From a virus, in the IMG/VR virus record IMGVR_UViG_3300028823_000342, positions 1-25,473 of that record: a stretch of DNA of 25,473 nt; one strand, given 5' to 3'. The position numbers were made by a program, and so were the translations under genes. The notes under the pieces are model-generated. The model did not search any database. It saw only the letters and a program-made list of their open reading frames with translations, and was not told the origin of the DNA. Of this stretch, positions 7,082 to 15,999 are shown one piece after another (positions within the stretch are counted from its first letter, which is position 1; each line of letters begins with the position of its first letter).

Positions 7082-7663
7082 ATGACTAACAGCAAAAAAA
7101 GAAAAAATAAAATTAGGAAATATAAAAAAAGGGAAAAATCTATTAAAATAGAACCTGACCAAATAATTTTAAAAGCTAGACAAATTTTACTTTATGGAGT
7201 TATTAACGAATCAATGGCAAATAAAGTTACTAAACAACTTTTTACTTTAGACCAATTATCCCATAAACCCATTACACTATGGATTAATTCAGGTGGTGGA
7301 AATGTTTACGATGGATTTGCTATTATAGATGCTATGAAAGGAATAAAATCTCCTGTTGCTACTATAATTATTGGTAAAGCTTGCAGTATGGCAGGTTTAA
7401 TTTCTATAACAGGTGAAGCTAGATTTATGACAAAAAATGCGATTTGGATGGCTCACGATGTAGCTACTTCAAATGAAGATTATGTATCTAAATTTTTAGC
7501 TAGAGCAGAACATACTAAAGAAATACAAAAAAGAACTTTTGCTCATTTATCTAAATATACAAAATTGTCTCAAATAGATTTATCTAAAGCGAGAAATCAA
7601 GAATTATGGTTATATGCTGAAGATTGTTATAAAAAAGGAATTATAGACAAAATAATTAAATAA
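7082..7663 (+). CDS. ClpP-like serine protease
   Basis: This 193-residue protein belongs to the ClpP/crotonase-fold proteases. The sequence shows WINSGGG (residues 67-73, oxyanion loop; ClpP usually has SPGG), catalytic Ser102 in GKACSMAG, and His125 in WMAHD. Where ClpP has its third catalytic residue, an acidic Glu174 aligns, followed by YAEDCYKKGIID (178-189), the usual end of the fold. Residues 1-22 are a basic extension not seen in ordinary ClpP. Phage ClpP-like proteases often mature capsids, but here no structural gene is near. It is instead followed by a membrane-anchored trypsin-like protease and an RseP-like protease. Whether it works with host ClpX/ClpA or alone is not visible. Start has AAGGAG at 7070-7075. 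Confidence 0.88.
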   Translation: MTNSKKRKNKIRKYKKREKSIKIEPDQIILKARQILLYGVINESMANKVTKQLFTLDQLSHKPITLWINSGGGNVYDGFAIIDAMKGIKSPVATIIIGKACSMAGLISITGEARFMTKNAIWMAHDVATSNEDYVSKFLARAEHTKEIQKRTFAHLSKYTKLSQIDLSKARNQELWLYAEDCYKKGIIDKIIK

Positions 7664-7676
7664 AGGAGAAATTTCT

Positions 7677-8387
7677 ATGAAAAAAATTAATTATATTATT
7701 TTGGTGATAGGACTATTAACTTTAACTTTTATTGGAACTCTTTTTTTAACAAGAAATTATATCAATATGGAAACATTAAAAATTGAAAAACCTAGTTATG
7801 AATATTTGAAATCTATAACCGTTTATATTGTAGGAAAAACGATTCCTGAAGAAAAAGAGAGTGAATTAATTGAAGTAAAAGAATCTTGGGCAGGAACAGG
7901 AGCTATAATTAAAATAGATAAAGAATATACTTATATTTTAACTAATAAACATGTAATAGGACACAATAAAAAGGCTATTATTTTTGTCGAAAATGATTTA
8001 AAAATGGTAGAAGCCGAATTAGTAGCTTTGCACGATAGCGATATAATAGATTTAGCTGTTATTAAAATAAAAGGAAAATTAAAAGGAAAAAGGGAAATTA
8101 AAGGAATAAGTACAGCTTCTTATCAAGATAGATTATATTTGGTTGGGCATCATTTAGGAAGAAAATATATTTATGGGGAAGGAGTATTTGCAGGTTATGA
8201 CGGTATTTATGACATTATTCAAATACCTACTTTATATGGAAATTCAGGAACAGCAGTATGTAATTCAAAAGGGGAATTAATAGCCATGATATTTGCTATT
8301 AATAAAATAGGTCTTTTTAATATAGATGTAGCTCATGGAATAACTATTGATGGATTAAATGTAGAATTATTTAAAAGAAATAATTGA
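7677..8387 (+). CDS. Membrane-anchored trypsin-like (DegS/HtrA-like) serine protease without PDZ domain
   Basis: This is a 236-residue protein. One N-terminal hydrophobic helix (about residues 5-24) after MKK acts as a signal anchor, placing the rest outside the cytoplasm. The chymotrypsin-fold domain has all three catalytic residues in context: His92 (TNKHV), Asp125 (DSDIIDLAVIKI) and Ser190 (LYGNSGTAV). The HtrA family has GNSGG; the second Gly is Thr here. The size and anchor match DegS, the site-1 protease of the E. coli sigma-E response, but there is no PDZ domain after the protease domain, so activation must differ. It lies 13 nt after the ClpP-like gene with AAAGGAGA (7662-7669). It is followed by a lipoprotein-like frame and an M50 protease. 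Substrate unknown. Confidence 0.87.
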   Translation: MKKINYIILVIGLLTLTFIGTLFLTRNYINMETLKIEKPSYEYLKSITVYIVGKTIPEEKESELIEVKESWAGTGAIIKIDKEYTYILTNKHVIGHNKKAIIFVENDLKMVEAELVALHDSDIIDLAVIKIKGKLKGKREIKGISTASYQDRLYLVGHHLGRKYIYGEGVFAGYDGIYDIIQIPTLYGNSGTAVCNSKGELIAMIFAINKIGLFNIDVAHGITIDGLNVELFKRNN

Positions 8388-8595
8388 TAAATTAATTATA
8401 AAATTTACTTATTCAGAATTATTAAAAATTTTATTAATAATAGGAATATTATTAATATTATTATTTATGTCTAATGGTTGTTCTTTAGGAATCTCTAATC
8501 AAAAAGAAATTGATAAATTTCACAAATGGCAAGAAAAGGAAAAAAGAAATAAATTAATTTCTAACTATTTTCTTCTCGAAGGAGTAAATTTATAA
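8383..8595 (+). CDS. Probable small lipoprotein read from a non-AUG start
   Basis: Between the trypsin-like and M50 genes lie about 200 nt with no ATG/GTG/TTG-led frame of useful length, yet one frame is open from 8365 to TAA 8593-8595. From an ATT codon at 8383 (overlapping the upstream TGA) it would give about 70 residues: a polar start, a hydrophobic helix (KILLIIGILLILLF), then MSNGC, a plausible lipobox cysteine, and a charged 39-residue tail. The only ATG in frame (8467) sits inside the end of the signal and has no ribosome-binding site at a usable distance. The stop is coupled to the next gene by TAATG. AUU starts are known but rare; a base error is the alternative. Confidence 0.45.
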   Translation: MDKLIIKFTYSELLKILLIIGILLILLFMSNGCSLGISNQKEIDKFHKWQEKEKRNKLISNYFLLEGVNL

Positions 8596-9239
8596 TGATA
8601 GCTTGGTTATATATTCTTGGAGCTTTATTAATTACCGTTTTTTTTCATGAATTAGCTCACATGATAGCGGCTTTATTATGTGGAGTTAAAGTTGAAGTAT
8701 TTAGTATTGGATTTGGTAAACCTTTATTTCATAAAAAATTATGGGGAATAGATTTTAGATTTACTCCTTTACTTTTAGGAGGATATTGTAGATTACAAGG
8801 AGAAAAAAGTAAAGTTAAAGAAGGATGGTTAATTCAACCATATTCTAAAAAAGTAATTATAGTTTTAGCTGGAGTTATTACCAATTTATTAATAGCTTTT
8901 TTATGTTATTGGATAAATTTTAAATCCATTAGTTTTGGATTAAAATTAGATTTTTTATTATTAAAATATATTATCGCAAAAGACCAATATAGTATTTGGA
9001 GAACCGTAACCATGTTAGCTCCTAATATATTTATATTACAATTAGGAATTTTAAATTTAGTATGTACTCTTAATATCATACCTTTTCCTGCTCTCGATGG
9101 AAGTTATATATGGTTATTTCTTTTAGAACCAATTTTTAAAGAAAAATTTCCTATTATTTTAGAAAAAATAGTAAAAATTGGATTTGTGATATTATTAATA
9201 TTACAATTTGTTTTATTATATTGGTTATGGTTTGTATAA
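8595..9239 (+). CDS. M50 site-2 protease (RseP-like, no PDZ domain)
   Basis: This is a 214-residue multi-pass membrane metalloprotease. The zinc motif HELAH (His18, Glu19, His22) lies in the first membrane helix, and the third ligand is in FPALDGS (Asp168) in a later helix, as in RseP/SpoIVFB-type proteases. FSIGFGKPLF and GGYCRLQGE (residues 62-70) are also typical of the RseP branch. The periplasmic PDZ domains of RseP (about 450 aa) are missing, so this is a compact catalytic core. Such enzymes cut transmembrane segments of proteins already trimmed by a site-1 protease. A DegS-like protease is encoded just upstream. The start is TAATG-coupled, with GAAGGAG at 8577-8584. Confidence 0.9.
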   Translation: MIAWLYILGALLITVFFHELAHMIAALLCGVKVEVFSIGFGKPLFHKKLWGIDFRFTPLLLGGYCRLQGEKSKVKEGWLIQPYSKKVIIVLAGVITNLLIAFLCYWINFKSISFGLKLDFLLLKYIIAKDQYSIWRTVTMLAPNIFILQLGILNLVCTLNIIPFPALDGSYIWLFLLEPIFKEKFPIILEKIVKIGFVILLILQFVLLYWLWFV

Positions 9240-9258: not shown

Positions 9259-9495
9259 ATGATTTTAAAATGGAAAGAAGAATTTTGCAAAATATATGGC
9301 AAAAGTATTGACACCATAACATTACAATCAATCATATCTTTTTTTGAATATGTTCTATTATGCCATACAAAAGAATTAAAAAAACGAACTTCACATCTTT
9401 TACCAACAGAAAAAGAGATAGTTTGGCTTATACATAATTCTGATAAAGTAGCCAAAGCCATAGATAAACTTTATAAGGAGAGATTAGGATTATGA
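9259..9495 (+). CDS. Small protein sharing a C-terminal module with the 724-918 protein
   Basis: I start at ATG 9259 after AAAGGAGGAA (9247-9256); an open in-frame stretch upstream overlaps the M50 gene. The 78-residue product has an N-terminal helical region unlike its paralogue. It then has SHLLPTEKEI and KAIDKLYKERLG, which match the protein at 724-918 with a shorter spacer. DNA identity is high (25 identical bases, 9452-9476 against 872-896), suggesting a fairly recent duplication or conversion. Function unknown. ATGA-coupled to the bL27-like gene. Confidence 0.7.
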   Translation: MILKWKEEFCKIYGKSIDTITLQSIISFFEYVLLCHTKELKKRTSHLLPTEKEIVWLIHNSDKVAKAIDKLYKERLGL

Positions 9496-9740
9496 GCAGA
9501 AGAAAAAGCCGACTTGGTGGACATCGTAATAATTTAGGTTCTAAACAATATAGACATCGAATATATATTAATGATGGACAATTTGTAAAAGCTGGAACTA
9601 TTATTATAATTGGAAATACAAATAAATTTAAATTAGGAATTAATACTTATTATGGAAAAAATCATACTATACATGCTAAAATAGAAGGAACAGTAAAAAT
9701 TAAAAATAAGAAGGTGAATGTTTATGAAAAAGAAATGTAA
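9492..9740 (+). CDS. rpmA: Ribosomal protein bL27 homologue
   Basis: This is an 82-residue protein. After a basic N-terminal arm it follows the bL27 core closely: GSKQYRHRI..DGQFVKAGTI (about residues 16-36), then KF.LG.NT..GK.HTI.AKIEG.VKI (about 45-71), matching the family's VKAG.II, KF..G.NVG.G.DHTLFA and G.V.F blocks. bL27 belongs to the large subunit; its N-terminal tail reaches toward the peptidyl-transferase centre. The usual tail signature (KKGGGS-RNGRDS) is replaced by RRKSRLGGHRNN, so the functional tip differs while the folded body is kept. The gene starts by ATGA overlap with GGAG at about 9478-9481. Phages are known to carry other ribosomal proteins such as bS21 and bL12. Replacement of host bL27 is inference. 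Confidence 0.82.
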   Translation: MSRRKSRLGGHRNNLGSKQYRHRIYINDGQFVKAGTIIIIGNTNKFKLGINTYYGKNHTIHAKIEGTVKIKNKKVNVYEKEM

Positions 9741-9924
9741 AGTATGTAAAAAAGTAAAATATTTGGTAAATGAACATGTATGTTTAGGATGTTTTGAAGA
9801 TTTGCGTAATTCAATTCATTATGGTATTGGAGGTAAGGAAGTATCTAAAGAGACCTATGACAGAATTGTAGAAAGAGGATATATTATTCCTGAGGAACTC
9901 GATGATGAAAGACAAGAAAAATAA
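9724..9924 (+). CDS. Small zinc-knuckle protein
   Basis: I choose ATG 9724 because AAGGTG (9711-9716) is 7 nt before it but only 1 nt before the in-frame ATG 9718. The 66-residue protein has CKVC (Cys5, Cys8) and CLGC (Cys20, Cys23), a compact zinc ribbon, then an acidic helical tail (EELDDERQEK). No further identity. It overlaps both the bL27 gene and the next gene. Confidence 0.65.
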   Translation: MKKKCKVCKKVKYLVNEHVCLGCFEDLRNSIHYGIGGKEVSKETYDRIVERGYIIPEELDDERQEK

Positions 9925-10372
9925 ACAAAATTTAAAAATTCAAAAAGCTTTAAAATTGATTTATAAAAGATTGCCTTCTACTTATCCTAGAGTAGGGGTA
10001 AAAACTTATAATACAACTTATTCTATGATAAAATCTCAAGCTAGAAAATATAATATGGGTTATAAAGATATGTATACTTGGTATAGAATTTATTTAGAAA
10101 ATCGAGAAAAAGGAGAAAATAATTATATAAATACAAAATATTATAGAAAAAGAGAAAAATTTAAAAATTTTTCTAATAAAAAATTAGAAATAGCAGCTTT
10201 TGCGTGTAATCCGATAAAAATTAGTTTAGAAAATACTTGCGATTTTACTATAAAAAATTATGTATATTTATTATTACATGAAATTGCTCATCTTTATTAT
10301 CGAACAAAAAATATAGATTATAATGAAAAATTGGCAGATTTATTTGCTATTAGATGGATTAAAAAAATATGA
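9902..10372 (+). CDS. HExxH putative zinc metallopeptidase
   Basis: This is a 156-residue protein with two adjacent ATG codons (9902, 9905) behind GAGGAA (9892-9897); either may be used. Near the C-terminus lies HEIAH (residues 126-130), followed by YNEKLADLFAIRW (140-152), where Glu142 or Asp146 could be the third zinc ligand, as in small single-domain metallopeptidases such as ImmA/IrrE or SprT-like proteins. The N-terminal 90 residues are very basic and aromatic. There is no signal peptide, so it should act in the cytoplasm. The HExxH site is clear; family and substrate are not. Confidence 0.75.
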   Translation: MMKDKKNKQNLKIQKALKLIYKRLPSTYPRVGVKTYNTTYSMIKSQARKYNMGYKDMYTWYRIYLENREKGENNYINTKYYRKREKFKNFSNKKLEIAAFACNPIKISLENTCDFTIKNYVYLLLHEIAHLYYRTKNIDYNEKLADLFAIRWIKKI

Positions 10373-11577
10373 AAAATAAAAAGATTCCGTTAGTAATAGC
10401 TTTACTTTGCGCTGGACAATATTTTAATCAAGGTATTTCTTCCTTGAGTCAGCAAAGTTTATATTATTTAACCAGAGAATTTTGGGGATTGTCTGCCACA
10501 ATGTTAGGATTAATTAGTTGGGTTACAGGATTAGCTTGGTATTTAAAAATATTATTTGGATATTTTATTGATAATGTAACTATAAAAGGAAAAAGAACTA
10601 CATATTATTTGAGAGGTTCTTATTTATTAATATTATTAGCTTATATTTATGTTATAATTTTTGGTTTTAATTTATTATCATTAATTATAATTGGAATTTT
10701 AATAAATGTATGTATAGCATTTGCTGATGTAGCTGTAGATAGAGAAATGGTTATAACAGAAAAGAAATATAATTTAAAAGGAAGATTGCAAGCTCTTCAA
10801 TGGAGTAGTTTAGGAATCGCTGGATTAATAGTTGCTTTATTAGGAGCTTGGATAGCTAAAACTTTTCCTGAACATGTAAATTATAGAGTAGCCGAAGGAA
10901 TATCAGCTTTATTTGTTTTAGGAATGTTAATATATTTATTCAAATTTTTTAAAGAAAAATCTATTAAAATTAAAAAGAAATTTAATTTTAAAGGAAGTTT
11001 TGAGAAACTTAAAAATAAAAAATTTCTTATTGGATTAGCTTTTGTAGCTTGTTTAAATTTTTGTCCTTCATTTGGAACGGCTCTAATGATAAAAGTAAGA
11101 GAAGTATTGCATGTAGATAAAATGTTTTTGGGATATTTAGGAGCGATGGGAACAGTTTTAGGAATAACAGGATATTTTATATATTATAAATGGGTTTATA
11201 AATTTTCTATGAAAAAATTGTTATATTTTATGATATTATTTACTACTATAAGCAATTTGTTTTATTTATATATTCCTAATAAATGGTTTTTATTATCCTA
11301 TAATTTAATTTTCGGAGCGTTTGGAGGAATAACCTTCATGACGCTCCTTGCATTTTTTGTTAAAATTATTCCCTCTGGAAGTGAGGCATTAATGTATGCT
11401 CTTATTACAAGTGTCAATAATTTCTTTGCAAGAGGAGGAAATTTTTTGGGTGGGATAATATATGATAAAAACAGTTATGCTACTACTGTTGTTTTAAGTA
11501 GTGTATGTACATTTTTATGTATATTTTTTATTCCGTTTTTAGGGATAAAAAAGGAGAAATATGAAACCATTAATTAA
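10369..11577 (+). CDS. 12-TM MFS transporter of the BT1 (folate-biopterin transporter) type
   Basis: This is a 402-residue polytopic membrane protein with about 12 helices. BT1-like features are SLSQQSLYYLTREFWGLSA and the following lysine in WYLKILFGYFIDN (family: PW..KP.YG..SD) near residues 20-70, then IAFADVAVDREMV (about 115-128), where the family has a D-x-x-x-D pair in a helix. In the C-terminal half are IPSGSEALMYALITSVNNF and GGNFLGGII, as in BT1 proteins. Known members move folates or pteridines in protozoa, plants and cyanobacteria. The substrate here is unknown, and another small-molecule MFS role cannot be excluded. A full-length transporter in a phage replication region is unusual. 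The start is ATGA-coupled to the metallopeptidase gene; base composition matches the neighbours. Confidence 0.75.
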   Translation: MKNKKIPLVIALLCAGQYFNQGISSLSQQSLYYLTREFWGLSATMLGLISWVTGLAWYLKILFGYFIDNVTIKGKRTTYYLRGSYLLILLAYIYVIIFGFNLLSLIIIGILINVCIAFADVAVDREMVITEKKYNLKGRLQALQWSSLGIAGLIVALLGAWIAKTFPEHVNYRVAEGISALFVLGMLIYLFKFFKEKSIKIKKKFNFKGSFEKLKNKKFLIGLAFVACLNFCPSFGTALMIKVREVLHVDKMFLGYLGAMGTVLGITGYFIYYKWVYKFSMKKLLYFMILFTTISNLFYLYIPNKWFLLSYNLIFGAFGGITFMTLLAFFVKIIPSGSEALMYALITSVNNFFARGGNFLGGIIYDKNSYATTVVLSSVCTFLCIFFIPFLGIKKEKYETIN

Positions 11578-12110: not shown

Positions 12111-13190
12111 ATGAGAAAAAATAAAATAGAATTATTAAAAAAATTAATAGAAATTCCTTCTCCATCTGGATTTGAAAATAATTTAGCTGGATTTATTAAA
12201 AAAGAATTATTAAAATATCTACCTAAAACTAAAGTTGTAATTGATTCTCAAAATAATGTTATAACTAAAATAGAAGGGCAAAGAAAAGGTATAATTATGA
12301 TAGATGCTCATTTAGACGAAATAGGTTTTATTGTTACAAATGTAGATAGAAATGGATTGATTAGCTTACAATATATTGGAGGAGGAGATAAACAAATTTT
12401 AAGTGCTAGAAATTTAAATATTTTAACTGGTAGAGAAACAATAAACGCTGTTGTAGATAGAAAACATTCTCATTTAATTAAAGATGAAGACGATGAAAAA
12501 ATAAATAACATTTATGAAGCTCAAATTGATATTGGAATAAGAGGAAGAAAACACGTTTTAAGAAAAATTAAAATAGGAGACCCTATAGTTTATCAACCTG
12601 GATTTAGACTATTATCAAATGATAAAAATCAAGGACAATTTATTACAGGATATGGATTTGATGATAAAAGTGGATGTTTTATTTTAATAGAGACAATTAA
12701 AGAAATAATTAAAACAAGAAAAAAACCACAATATACTTTATTGTTTACTTTTAGTTCTCAAGAAGAAACAGGAAAAACCAAAGCCAGACCTTTAGTTTAT
12801 AAACATAAACCAGAATTATTTATTGAAGTTGATGTTACTTTTGCTACAGATTACGCTGATGAAGAATTGGATAGAGAAGTTGGTAAATGTGAATTAGGAA
12901 AAGGAATAGTTCTTTATAGAGGAGTAGATATTCATAATGAATCTTTAAGATTATTAAGAAATATCGCAATTAAAAATAAATTAAAAGTACAACATCAAGC
13001 TTCTGTAGGAAACATAGGATATACTTCTACAGAAATAACTGATATATGTAATAAAGCGGTTATTTTGGGAATACCTTTAAGAAATATGCACTCTCCTGTA
13101 GAAATAATTAATACAAAAGATTTAACTTATGGAACACAACTTTTAAAACATTTTTGTTTAAGTAAAGAGTTAAGGAGGATTTTAAAATGA
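12111..13190 (+). CDS. M42-family zinc aminopeptidase
   Basis: This is a 359-residue protein, near the usual 340-360 aa of the family, starting behind GGAGG (12100-12104). The co-catalytic metal ligands are all visible: His67 (DAHLDE), Asp184 (YGFDDKSG), Glu219 with the catalytic-base position Glu218 (SSQEETG), Asp241 (IEVDVTF) and His327 (NMHSP). The opening LIEIPSPSGFE is also typical. M42 enzymes are large cytoplasmic oligomers that trim peptides from the N-terminus and often follow proteasome or Clp-type proteolysis. In this context it could finish peptides made by the upstream proteases or supply amino acids; that is inference. ATGA-coupled to the next gene. Confidence 0.9.
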   Translation: MRKNKIELLKKLIEIPSPSGFENNLAGFIKKELLKYLPKTKVVIDSQNNVITKIEGQRKGIIMIDAHLDEIGFIVTNVDRNGLISLQYIGGGDKQILSARNLNILTGRETINAVVDRKHSHLIKDEDDEKINNIYEAQIDIGIRGRKHVLRKIKIGDPIVYQPGFRLLSNDKNQGQFITGYGFDDKSGCFILIETIKEIIKTRKKPQYTLLFTFSSQEETGKTKARPLVYKHKPELFIEVDVTFATDYADEELDREVGKCELGKGIVLYRGVDIHNESLRLLRNIAIKNKLKVQHQASVGNIGYTSTEITDICNKAVILGIPLRNMHSPVEIINTKDLTYGTQLLKHFCLSKELRRILK

Positions 13191-13480
13191 TTAATATTGA
13201 TGGAAATAAAGGAATGGAAAGAGGAATTAACGAAATAACCTATATTTCTCGTTTAGAAAATAAGATTAAAAATCTAAAAAATCTTTTAAATGAAAAATGG
13301 AAAGAAGAATTTAAAGCTTATTTATATTTTAACGAACCAGTTGGATATGTAGGAATTACAAACTCGTCTAAAGATTTAGCAAAATTATTAAAAAAATATT
13401 TAGGAATTAAACTTTATCAATTTCCAGAAGTAAAAATAAAAGCTAAAAAAGGAAAAATAGTAATAGAGAGAATAAAATGA
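13187..13480 (+). CDS. Hypothetical protein between M42 peptidase and MgtC genes
   Basis: This is a 97-residue protein behind AAGGAGG (13171-13177), coupled by ATGA at both ends. An internal helix (about residues 22-42, Leu/Asn/Lys-rich) precedes a mixed alpha/beta C-terminal part ending in alternating Lys/Ile strands (VKIKAKKGKIVIERIK). No cysteines, membrane segments or motif recognised. Confidence 0.6.
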   Translation: MINIDGNKGMERGINEITYISRLENKIKNLKNLLNEKWKEEFKAYLYFNEPVGYVGITNSSKDLAKLLKKYLGIKLYQFPEVKIKAKKGKIVIERIK

Positions 13481-13932
13481 ATGAATTAATTTATTTAACT
13501 AGGATTGGAATTACTCTTTTCTTAGGATTAATTATAGGATTAGAAAGAGAACAAGCTGATAAACCTGCAGGATTAAGAACCATATTATCTATTATGTTAG
13601 GAGCTTGTTTAGCTGTAATTACAACAATAGAATGGGATAGAATAGGAATACAAAATCAATTTGATTCTGTAAGAATAATAGCCTATTATTTAGTAGCTAT
13701 CGGTTTTGTAGGTGGTGGGATTATTGGAAGAAAACAAGGTAAAATCGAAGGTATTACTACAGCTTCTTTATTACTTCCTATATCTATGATAGGATTTTTA
13801 TGTGGAATGGAAAAATATGTATTAGCTATAACGACCACTTTAGTACTTTATTTTGTTTTGAAATTAAAACATTTAAGATTTAAAATACAATTATTTAAAA
13901 AGAAACGGAGAAAATATCATGGAAAAAAATAA
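13477..13932 (+). CDS. MgtC/SapB family membrane protein
   Basis: This is a 151-residue protein with four to five helices. The family signature is clear: LIIGLEREQADKPAGLRT (about residues 18-35), LGACLA, DSVRIIAYYLVAIGFVGGGII (about 63-83) and GITTASLLLPISMIGFLCGM (about 92-111). MgtC proteins support survival in low magnesium and inside host cells, and in Salmonella MgtC inhibits the F1Fo ATP synthase. The cytoplasmic ACT-like C-terminal domain of full-length MgtC is absent; only a basic tail follows. In a phage it might affect Mg2+ or energy state of the infected cell, but that is speculation. The start overlaps the previous gene as ATGA. Confidence 0.85.
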   Translation: MNELIYLTRIGITLFLGLIIGLEREQADKPAGLRTILSIMLGACLAVITTIEWDRIGIQNQFDSVRIIAYYLVAIGFVGGGIIGRKQGKIEGITTASLLLPISMIGFLCGMEKYVLAITTTLVLYFVLKLKHLRFKIQLFKKKRRKYHGKK

Positions 13933-14131
13933 GGATATTAAAATAGTTCCTCATCATTACGAGAAAAAATGTTATTTTTGTGATGGTTATGGATATAAAA
14001 TAAAAAAAATTCCTAAAAAAAAGTCTAAAATTATAACATGTATGAGGTGCGAGGGAACAGGAAAATATATTCAAACTTTTTATTATATATTTTATAAAGG
14101 ACAATGTTTTGGTGTCGATACTTTAAAATAA
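13919..14131 (+). CDS. DnaJ-type zinc-finger (CxxCxGxG) protein without J domain
   Basis: This is a 70-residue protein with CGGAG (13905-13909) inside the end of the MgtC gene. CYFCDGYG (residues 18-25) and CMRCEGTG (about 41-48) are two CxxCxGxG units, together one zinc site of the DnaJ cysteine-rich region. There is no J domain or client-binding domain. Single-pair proteins of this type occur in phages and plastids and may bind unfolded proteins or nucleic acids; the role is not established here. Confidence 0.7.
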   Translation: MEKNKDIKIVPHHYEKKCYFCDGYGYKIKKIPKKKSKIITCMRCEGTGKYIQTFYYIFYKGQCFGVDTLK

Positions 14132-14142
14132 GGAGATAAATA

Positions 14143-15999
14143 ATGTATAAAGAAGTTATTTTAGATTATATTTTTGATTATTTAAAATTAAAAGGTATTC
14201 CATATAAAAAATCAGGTAAAGTAATAATGCTTAATTGTCCTTATTGTAAAAACGAAGAAAAAACAGCTACAATTATCCCAAATACTTCTATAATTAATTG
14301 TTTTGAGTGTGAGAAAAAATATAATTTAATAGATTTAGTTAAAAAAATAGAATCTGAAAAATTAACTTTTTCAGAAGAAGAAATATTACAATATTTAAAA
14401 GAATTATTTGATATAAACGTGGTTACAGAAAAAGAAGAAAAGGAAATAGAAAAACTTTTAGATTATTATATTAAAGAAAGATTTAATTTAGTACCAATAG
14501 CCAAAAATGCTAAAAATCCAGTAGAAAAAGATTGGACTAATCAAGACCATCGTAATAAAGAAGAATGGAAAAATTGGTTAAATAATGGATTAAATATTGG
14601 AGTAAAAACAGGTAAAAGAAGCAACATAACTGTTATAGATATAGACACTAAAGAAATACCAAATTTATTAAAAAATGTAAATACTCTTATTCAAGAAACT
14701 AAAAAAGGTTATCATTATTTTTTCCAATATGAAGAAGATTTGCCTAAATGTAGAATTGATGAATTAAATATTGATATAGAAAATGATGGAGGACAAGTAG
14801 TTATAACTCCTAGCATAGTTGAAAATGTAAAAAGAAAATTTAATAATTTATCTTTTCCTATAATAAAAATGTCTCCTGAAATAAAAACATTTTTAAAAGA
14901 AAAAACTACAGTTCCTCGTAAAACAAGAAGTGAATTAGTTAAAGAAGATATTCAATCAGAAGATTTTAATTTACAACTTTTAAAAGAAGGAAGTAGGAAT
15001 GATAGTTTAATTAGATTAGGAGGATTATTTAGAAAAGAATTAAGTCTTAATCAAACTTATTATGTATTGAATATTTTAAACAAACATGCTTGCGAAAAAC
15101 CTTTAGAAGATAGAGAAATAAGAGGAATGATAAATTCATTAGACAAATATATTGATGATGACGAACAAGACATAGCCCATAAAATTTTAGAATATTTAAG
15201 ATTGATTGAAAGTGCTACAAAAACAGATATAGAAATTGTTATAACAGGAAATCAAGCTAAAGGAGAATTAAAGAAAAGAATCGATAAGATTATTAATTCT
15301 TTAATTAAAGAACAATATATTGGTAGGAGAGGCAGATATTATCATTTAATTAAAAAAGCCGATTGGAAAGAAAATTTAATAAGTGTAGGAAATCCAATAA
15401 ATTTTAAAATGCCTTATTTTCATGATGTCGGAATATTTAATTGGGGAGACCTCATATTAATTGGAAGTAAAGCAAAATACGGTAAAACTCATATTAGTAT
15501 GAATATTGTTCAAAAATTAGTTAAACAAGGAATTAAACCATATTATATTTCATTAGAAACTGGAAGTAGATTTACTAAAATAGCTTTACAATTAGGGTTA
15601 AAAGAAGGAGATTTTAAGTGGGATTTTTGTGCTGACCCTACTAAAATAGAATTAGAAAAAAATGCTGTTACAATTATAGATTGGCTATTAGTTATAGATA
15701 AAGCTAAAACAGATTTAGTATTTAGACATTTTATTGAACAATTAGATAAAAATAAAGGATTATTAATTATATTTCAACAATTAAAACACGATGGTAGTTG
15801 GTTTGCTCCTAATATGTGTAAACAATTTCCTTCTTTAGCTACGAGATATTTATATGAAAATGAAGGAGACGGAACTTACGGAAAATTTACCATCGAAGAA
15901 GTAAGAGAACCAACCCAATATGGAAAAAAAACATTTGAACTTCCTTGTATTTACGATTGGCAAAGTAAAGAATTAAAAAGATTAGATGAAAAGGAATAA
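14143..15999 (+). CDS. Primase-helicase: zinc ribbon, PrimPol and RecA-like ATPase in one protein
   Basis: This is a 618-residue protein with AAGGAGA at 14130-14136. Domains in order: a zinc ribbon (CPYC, Cys32/35; CFEC, Cys53/56) as in DNA primases; a bifunctional primase/polymerase (PrimPol) domain at about 105-245 with IGVKTGKRSNITVIDID (Asp166, Asp168), KGYHYF (His191) and DGGQVVITPS; a primase C-terminal helical unit at about 280-335 (KEGSRNDSLIRLGG, KPLEDREIRGMI); a winged-helix-like segment at about 345-400; and a RecA-like ATPase at about 430-600 with Walker A GSKAKYGKT (441-449) and IIFQQ (542-546). It should prime and unwind at the fork. The ATPase part is closer to RepA/DnaB-type than to T7 gp4 by eye, but this is not tested. 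It opens the replication operon. Confidence 0.85.
   Translation: MYKEVILDYIFDYLKLKGIPYKKSGKVIMLNCPYCKNEEKTATIIPNTSIINCFECEKKYNLIDLVKKIESEKLTFSEEEILQYLKELFDINVVTEKEEKEIEKLLDYYIKERFNLVPIAKNAKNPVEKDWTNQDHRNKEEWKNWLNNGLNIGVKTGKRSNITVIDIDTKEIPNLLKNVNTLIQETKKGYHYFFQYEEDLPKCRIDELNIDIENDGGQVVITPSIVENVKRKFNNLSFPIIKMSPEIKTFLKEKTTVPRKTRSELVKEDIQSEDFNLQLLKEGSRNDSLIRLGGLFRKELSLNQTYYVLNILNKHACEKPLEDREIRGMINSLDKYIDDDEQDIAHKILEYLRLIESATKTDIEIVITGNQAKGELKKRIDKIINSLIKEQYIGRRGRYYHLIKKADWKENLISVGNPINFKMPYFHDVGIFNWGDLILIGSKAKYGKTHISMNIVQKLVKQGIKPYYISLETGSRFTKIALQLGLKEGDFKWDFCADPTKIELEKNAVTIIDWLLVIDKAKTDLVFRHFIEQLDKNKGLLIIFQQLKHDGSWFAPNMCKQFPSLATRYLYENEGDGTYGKFTIEEVREPTQYGKKTFELPCIYDWQSKELKRLDEKE

Follow-up and report, generated by a model that had tools for sequence, protein, structure and literature searches.

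The window analysed here (a 25.5-kb virus record, 21 to 27% GC, taken over its whole length) carries adjacent genes for a ClpP-fold peptidase, a Deg/trypsin-like serine protease and an RseP-like site-2 protease of the M50 family. The latter two have intact active sites and lack the PDZ domains of their bacterial counterparts, and in related phages genes of the set often overlap. We tentatively read the window genes as one version of a co-expressed phage set for proteolysis and N-terminal processing that would act on membrane proteins, with clearance of such proteins as its favored role; we put the probability of this reading at about 0.42. The data suggest that a group of uncultured large phages uses this operon to cut membrane proteins itself, either to clear them away or to signal.

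Three adjacent protease genes in the window

The window encodes T4-type PolB, RecA, RuvC, a clamp loader, a prim-pol primase and an exonuclease, and it is a piece of a larger phage whose lifestyle is probably virulent. A first-pass annotation, made without database searches, had reported adjacent ClpP-, Deg/trypsin- and M50-type genes in the region from 7082 to 9239. Open reading frames are present at these positions (Table 1), and Pfam confirmed all three identities, with every match exceeding its gathering cut-off. An SD-like box (AGGAG or GGAG) precedes each of the three frames. The gap from ClpP to trypsin is 13 nt; the M50 gene comes after a doubtful small frame.

Table 1. Positions of the protease genes and associated features in the window
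Feature	Positions	Strand	Remarks
C4-family gene, zinc-ribbon-like, 168 aa	6558..7064	+	Conserved upstream of ClpP; context marker
ClpP-fold (S14) peptidase, 193 aa, with a basic tail at the N terminus	7082..7663	+	PF00574 CLP_protease, 4.9e-36
Deg/trypsin-like serine protease, 236 aa, one predicted N-terminal hydrophobic anchor	7677..8387	+	PF13365 Trypsin_2, 1.1e-13
Doubtful small hydrophobic frame	8383..8595	+	Read between trypsin and M50; not conserved
Compact PDZ-less RseP-like site-2 protease (M50), 214 aa	8595..9239	+	PF02163 Peptidase_M50, 1.8e-31
M42 aminopeptidase	12111..13190	+	PF05343, 6.6e-55

A profile of the ClpP family matched ClpP structures in the PDB at 7.7e-32. The catalytic residues proposed in the first pass, Ser102 and His125, both fall in invariant columns of the family alignment, and Ser and His are kept in 20 of 20 members. 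The equivalent of E. coli ClpP Asp171 is Ala in the window and a residue other than Asp in all 20 members, so that the phage family does not have the full Ser-His-Asp triad of ATP-dependent ClpP, a loss on which the first pass was silent. Two phages (G017 and G022) each carry two ClpP paralogues, one on either side of an MFS gene.

The profile of the trypsin family matched HtrA, DegQ and DegS structures (best match, 3.8e-28). The triad His92/Asp125/Ser190 is intact in the window, as had been read from the sequence, and invariant in 22 of 22 family proteins. The window protein has a hydropathy segment around residue 7, and its relatives have one close to the N terminus; this segment is a predicted membrane anchor. 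The phage enzyme thus has the trypsin-like domain, intact triad and N-terminal anchor of the HtrA/Deg proteases DegS and DegQ. Unlike them, it has no C-terminal PDZ domain; the window protein stops right after the protease domain, which bears out the earlier view that this enzyme is PDZ-less. An independent search with PF13365 found matches in 18 of 21 relatives, and tblastn with the window trypsin gave no match at 0.01 among 50,697 phage records. Two trypsin genes occur in three records (G001, G002 and G021), all of which lack M50; these are perhaps a single lineage and hence reflect one event.

The window M50 protein has four predicted transmembrane (TM) segments. Its HELAH and LDG motifs lie in invariant alignment columns, with HExxH and DG kept in 16 of 16 phage proteins; in clades A to C, the phage M50 open frames are 192 to 243 aa long. 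The family profile matched RseP structures with an E value of 8e-31. This match is in two pieces that flank the PDZ region, leaving out the PDZ-tandem region of about 240 residues, and the phage M50 therefore corresponds to an RseP core without PDZ domains, again as first proposed. Phage M50 and RseP (TIGR00054; structures 9j82 and 7w6x) have in common the HExxH, GFGKP and GGY-GE blocks and the N-PxPxLDG motif; the difference is the PDZ tandem region, which separates TM segments two and three in RseP and is missing from the phage protein. Against the RseP equivalog TIGR00054, the window protein scored 95.7 bits, below the cut-off of 147.6.

In an M50 tree built on 223 columns, 17 clade A and clade B sequences form one group (support, 98/91), within which A and B are separate branches; together they stand apart from the sampled cellular homologues, which indicates that the gene is old and has been kept. 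As far as a tree of 223 columns allows, this pattern fits an ancient, vertically kept M50 gene and not a recent pick-up from a host. Cellular M50 matches were distant and scattered and gave no host assignment. The window M50 had no match in PHROGs at an E value of 0.1, and the M50 matches among the 50,697 phage records covered at most about half of the protein; three were annotated as RseP.

The first pass had also described the small frame between trypsin and M50 as lipoprotein-like. No ATG, GTG or TTG lies upstream of its hydrophobic stretch, so that ATT would be needed as a start, and its lipobox, SNGC, deviates from the consensus. The trypsin and M50 genes of one relative, G014, overlap at this very spot. 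In G013, the window's nearest relative, a different 25-codon hydrophobic frame, MMINMKKILGLLIILFCLTGMEKLQ, lies between trypsin (9400) and M50 (9305) on the minus strand and is unlike the window's frame in the same place. We rejected the small frame as a conserved lipoprotein component because it has no usual start and relatives differ. Production of a short peptide is nevertheless possible, as the TAATG end of the frame falls on the start of M50.

Accessory genes surround the window proteases, among them MgtC and a phosphoesterase. A bL27-like ribosomal protein is encoded at 9492-9740 (PF01016, 1.7e-11); the term “L27” is absent from the main text of a survey of ribosomal proteins encoded by viruses, published in 2019 (PMC6375957). 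The frame at 9902-10372 encodes a putative zinc metalloprotease with a HEIAH motif and no Pfam match; it has a homologue in G007 at 32016-32495. At 10369-11577 lies a BT1-family MFS transporter gene, which adjoins the protease block in both clades A and B. Its product is up to 68 to 69% identical to those of relatives and had no match among the 50,697 phage records. Six records, the window among them, have a member of the M42 aminopeptidase family in this block; it is a possible peptide-end processing partner of the protease set.

Conservation and gene order in related phages

Single-sequence scans of viral_contigs with the M50, trypsin and PolB proteins found no relatives; a RecA scan found nine phage contigs, with 51 to 61% RecA identity. 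Further relatives came from M50 and ClpP profile scans, and genes were called on the fetched records. Trypsin is present in 19 of the resulting 23 records, ClpP in 18 and M50 in 16, and all three protease types, whose co-occurrence the first pass had proposed to check, are found together in 12 (the window, G004, G006, G007, G013, G014, G015, G017, G018, G020, G022 and G023). We conclude that the grouping of the proteases is not due to chance. Because G013 to G024 were found through M50 or ClpP, the counts are biased for these two genes; in the records found through RecA (G001 to G010), which are unbiased for the protease genes, trypsin is present in 8 of 10, ClpP in 6 and M50 in 4. One record, G005, is only a 13.6-kb fragment.

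Since the records are mostly incomplete, the absence of a gene counts for little unless the record includes the flanking block. Such is the case for the 5 of 11 clade A records from which M50 is missing (G001, G002, G003, G008 and G021) and, among the three records in which ClpP was not found (G008, G010 and G016), for G008. The individual absence of M50 or ClpP in relatives, together with a trypsin gene that is unlinked in clade B, speaks against an obligate set, a test that the first pass had itself put forward.

A gene for peptide deformylase (PDF), overlooked in the first pass, is a recurrent fourth partner. It occurs in 18 of the 23 records and is the most regular companion of the M50 gene; no PDF was found in any frame of the window. 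The PDF-M50 neighborhood recurs in two clades with differing surroundings, and PDF in a relative matched PF01327 at 1.2e-27. Viral PDFs are known and active (PMC5591237). The relatives' PDF has three PDF motifs in common with those of cyanophage S-SSM7 and Vp16 and differs from them in its genomic position, next to the gene for a site-2 protease or for trypsin.

Eleven clade A records contain the block, in which exonuclease, C4, ClpP and trypsin come in this order and primase lies beyond further genes. The C4 family, present in 18 records, precedes ClpP in most clade A relatives with a gap of 8 to 22 nt, and ClpP and trypsin are neighbors or have one gene between them in 9 of the 11 records. 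Several of these genes overlap: in G014, ClpP with PDF and PDF with trypsin (4 nt each) and trypsin with M50 (1 nt); in G006, ClpP with trypsin (1 nt) and PDF with M50 (4 nt); and in G007, PDF with M50 (4 nt). The clade B block runs PDF, M50, in some cases ClpP, then MFS, ClpP and phosphoesterase, with trypsin far from the M50/ClpP block, on the exonuclease side. Here PDF overlaps M50 by 4 nt in both G017 and G015, and M50 overlaps the next gene by 1 nt (ClpP in G017, MFS in G015). These overlaps suggest co-translation.

The same maps could be read as showing independent accessory genes that share a host-interaction region with the MFS, MgtC, M42 and phosphoesterase genes and have no joint action. 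The block is indeed an accessory mosaic with gains and losses, clade B trypsin is located elsewhere, and PDF, MFS and phosphoesterase are roughly as constant as the proteases. However, overlaps couple ClpP, PDF, trypsin and M50 in G014 and PDF, M50 and ClpP in G017, and ClpP stays close to trypsin in most of clade A. We consider independent genes unlikely, while placing them first among the alternatives to clearance.

The exonuclease genes of G007 (38845-40695) and G008 (12447-14336) encode 616 to 629 aa, compared with 242 to 289 aa in relatives. The two long exonucleases fell into a single large cluster together with long genes unrelated to them, which points to an inserted element common to these genes, e.g., an intein. 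Cluster f0 (38 members) contains many genes that, judged by eye, are homing-endonuclease-like; they are scattered in G001, G003, G007 and G008.

A head protease separate from ClpP

The first pass had allowed that the ClpP-like protein might be only a capsid-maturation protease. Clades A and B have another candidate in their head module: in 11 records, the gene f15 lies between f14, in the portal position, and f31, a putative capsid gene. The portal and capsid labels come from position and length, and the terminase label comes from a weak PHROG match (0.0013). In the N-terminal domain of f15, a His and a Ser are invariant. An AF2 model of this domain from 11 sequences had a pLDDT of 81 (an earlier 4-sequence model was poor, with a pLDDT of 43). 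Foldseek matched the f15 model to herpesvirus assemblin (best E value, 9e-4), to T4 gp21 (E value, 6e-3; probability, 1.0; TM score, 0.57 by target) and to many phage prohead proteases. A sequence profile of the domain (4 sequences) had no significant PDB match, and hhalign against T4 gp21 aligned only 45 columns, with an E value of 0.0034 and low probability. With sequence comparisons this weak, we base the assemblin call on the AF2 model, its fold match and the conserved His and Ser. The Pfam T4 families Gp23 and S77 were silent in relatives and controls alike and were not used.

The window ClpP has the same fold, Ser and His as other phage-encoded ClpP-like proteins, namely, head-maturation S14 proteins and the annotated Clp genes of jumbo phages. 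In contrast to the head-maturation proteins, its gene lies outside the head module, where a separate protease of assemblin type is encoded. If ClpP were the capsid-maturation protease, its neighbors would be unrelated to it; among PHROGs it is closest to a head-maturation family (9.4e-34), and the loss of the canonical Asp would also agree with such a role. Yet its NF045542 score of 92 is below the cut-off of 120, the head module has f15, and two phages, G008 and G016, have the f15 head module with no ClpP found. We therefore rejected ClpP as the capsid protease, a role that we regard as extremely improbable.

Proposed clearance of membrane proteins and its alternatives

DegS is gated by its own PDZ domain. 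Without the PDZ domains by which DegS and RseP are gated, both phage membrane enzymes are probably constitutive, and constitutive enzymes would suit the clearance, during infection, of membrane proteins from host or phage better than they would suit a tightly regulated signal relay. In E. coli, RseP acts on single-pass proteins of type II once a site-1 cut has been made; its PDZ tandem has been proposed to be a size filter that enforces the wait for site-1 cleavage, and RseP also clears remnant signal peptides (PMC8144685). By analogy, a PDZ-less RseP-like form should have no need to wait for site-1 cleavage.

In such clearance, the membrane-anchored Deg-like protease would cut on the extracytoplasmic side, and the RseP-like protease would remove what is left in the membrane, be it a transmembrane stub or a signal peptide. 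The released fragments would be finished in the cytosol by ClpP, working with a host unfoldase or, on short peptides, by itself; PDF (in most relatives) and the M42 aminopeptidase (in some) may assist it there. Weighed against clearance are M50, ClpP and PDF genes that are not fixed among the records, the unlinked trypsin of clade B, the lost ClpP Asp and the lack of a ClpX/ClpA-type unfoldase in the relatives searched.

Regulated signalling by the set is a less likely alternative. The first pass had compared it to the DegS-RseP-ClpXP cascade of E. coli; the conserved set, the intact active sites and the often overlapping operons uphold that comparison, and an obligate three-step order is at best partly supported. 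The phage set contains the same three enzyme classes as this sigma-E cascade. It differs in that the membrane enzymes have no PDZ domains, ClpP has no canonical Asp, most operons include PDF, and no phage ClpX or anti-sigma substrate was found. A search for a ClpX/ClpA-type unfoldase (PF10431, ClpB_D2-small) found none in 21 relatives and was positive in ten control genomes; the phage records are incomplete for this search, and a host unfoldase could serve the phage ClpP.

Sigma-factor matches exceeded the cut-off only in G009, G015 to G018 and G022, i.e., in clade B and G009; we presume that these may be late-gene sigma factors. The window's nearest relatives have no such match, and neither a substrate nor an anti-sigma factor was identified in the related phage records. 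The window frame at 1928-2698 (with another ATG at 1958) belongs to a family of single-pass membrane proteins with predicted N-in/C-out topology in 15 of the 23 records. All 15 end in hydrophobic-x-Phe (e.g., YYKWRF), resembling the C termini of outer-membrane proteins. The product is a possible client of the proteases; no known domain was found in it and, hence, no anti-sigma domain.

In a regulated relay, trypsin would make the site-1 cut and M50 the site-2 cut, and ClpP would act last, all on one type II (N-in, C-out) protein, releasing a cytosolic regulator. The enzymes are of the correct types, in one operon and with intact active sites, most clade B phages and G009 have a sigma-factor gene, and the conserved single-pass family offers a candidate substrate. 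The relay has to contend with several relatives that lack M50 or ClpP, with the unlinked clade B trypsin, with the missing sigma match in the window's nearest relatives and with a candidate that has no recognizable anti-sigma domain; with the PDZ gates missing, its regulation would come from elsewhere. A complete phage site-1/site-2/ClpP relay, in which PDZ-less, always-on enzymes and a linked PDF are aimed at one membrane regulator or at the host envelope-stress system, is improbable, as is the regulated form.

The enzymes might otherwise serve superinfection exclusion or counter-defence by cutting host receptors, envelope-stress sensors or membrane-bound defence proteins. Their predicted membrane anchoring would suit this role, and the trypsin domain is related to proteases of PADLOC defence systems (LmuA, 5.7e-12). 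That match, however, covers only part of the shared trypsin fold, and no target was identified; we consider this role very unlikely. With PDF and, in some records, an M42 aminopeptidase close by, we rank clearance above independent genes, a regulated relay and exclusion or counter-defence, in that order; these explanations are not strictly exclusive.

The first pass knew of no described phage system of this make-up, and we likewise found none in PHROGs (for M50), in cultured phage records (for trypsin) or in the literature searched; the open-access literature searched held no phage-encoded site-2 protease system. Retention of M50 in diverged phages, coupled to the genes for PDF, Deg and ClpP, would mean that some phages control envelope signalling or the turnover of membrane proteins on their own. 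The PDZ-less Deg and RseP forms would be natural test material for the extent to which PDZ domains by themselves impose the order of site-1 before site-2 cleavage.
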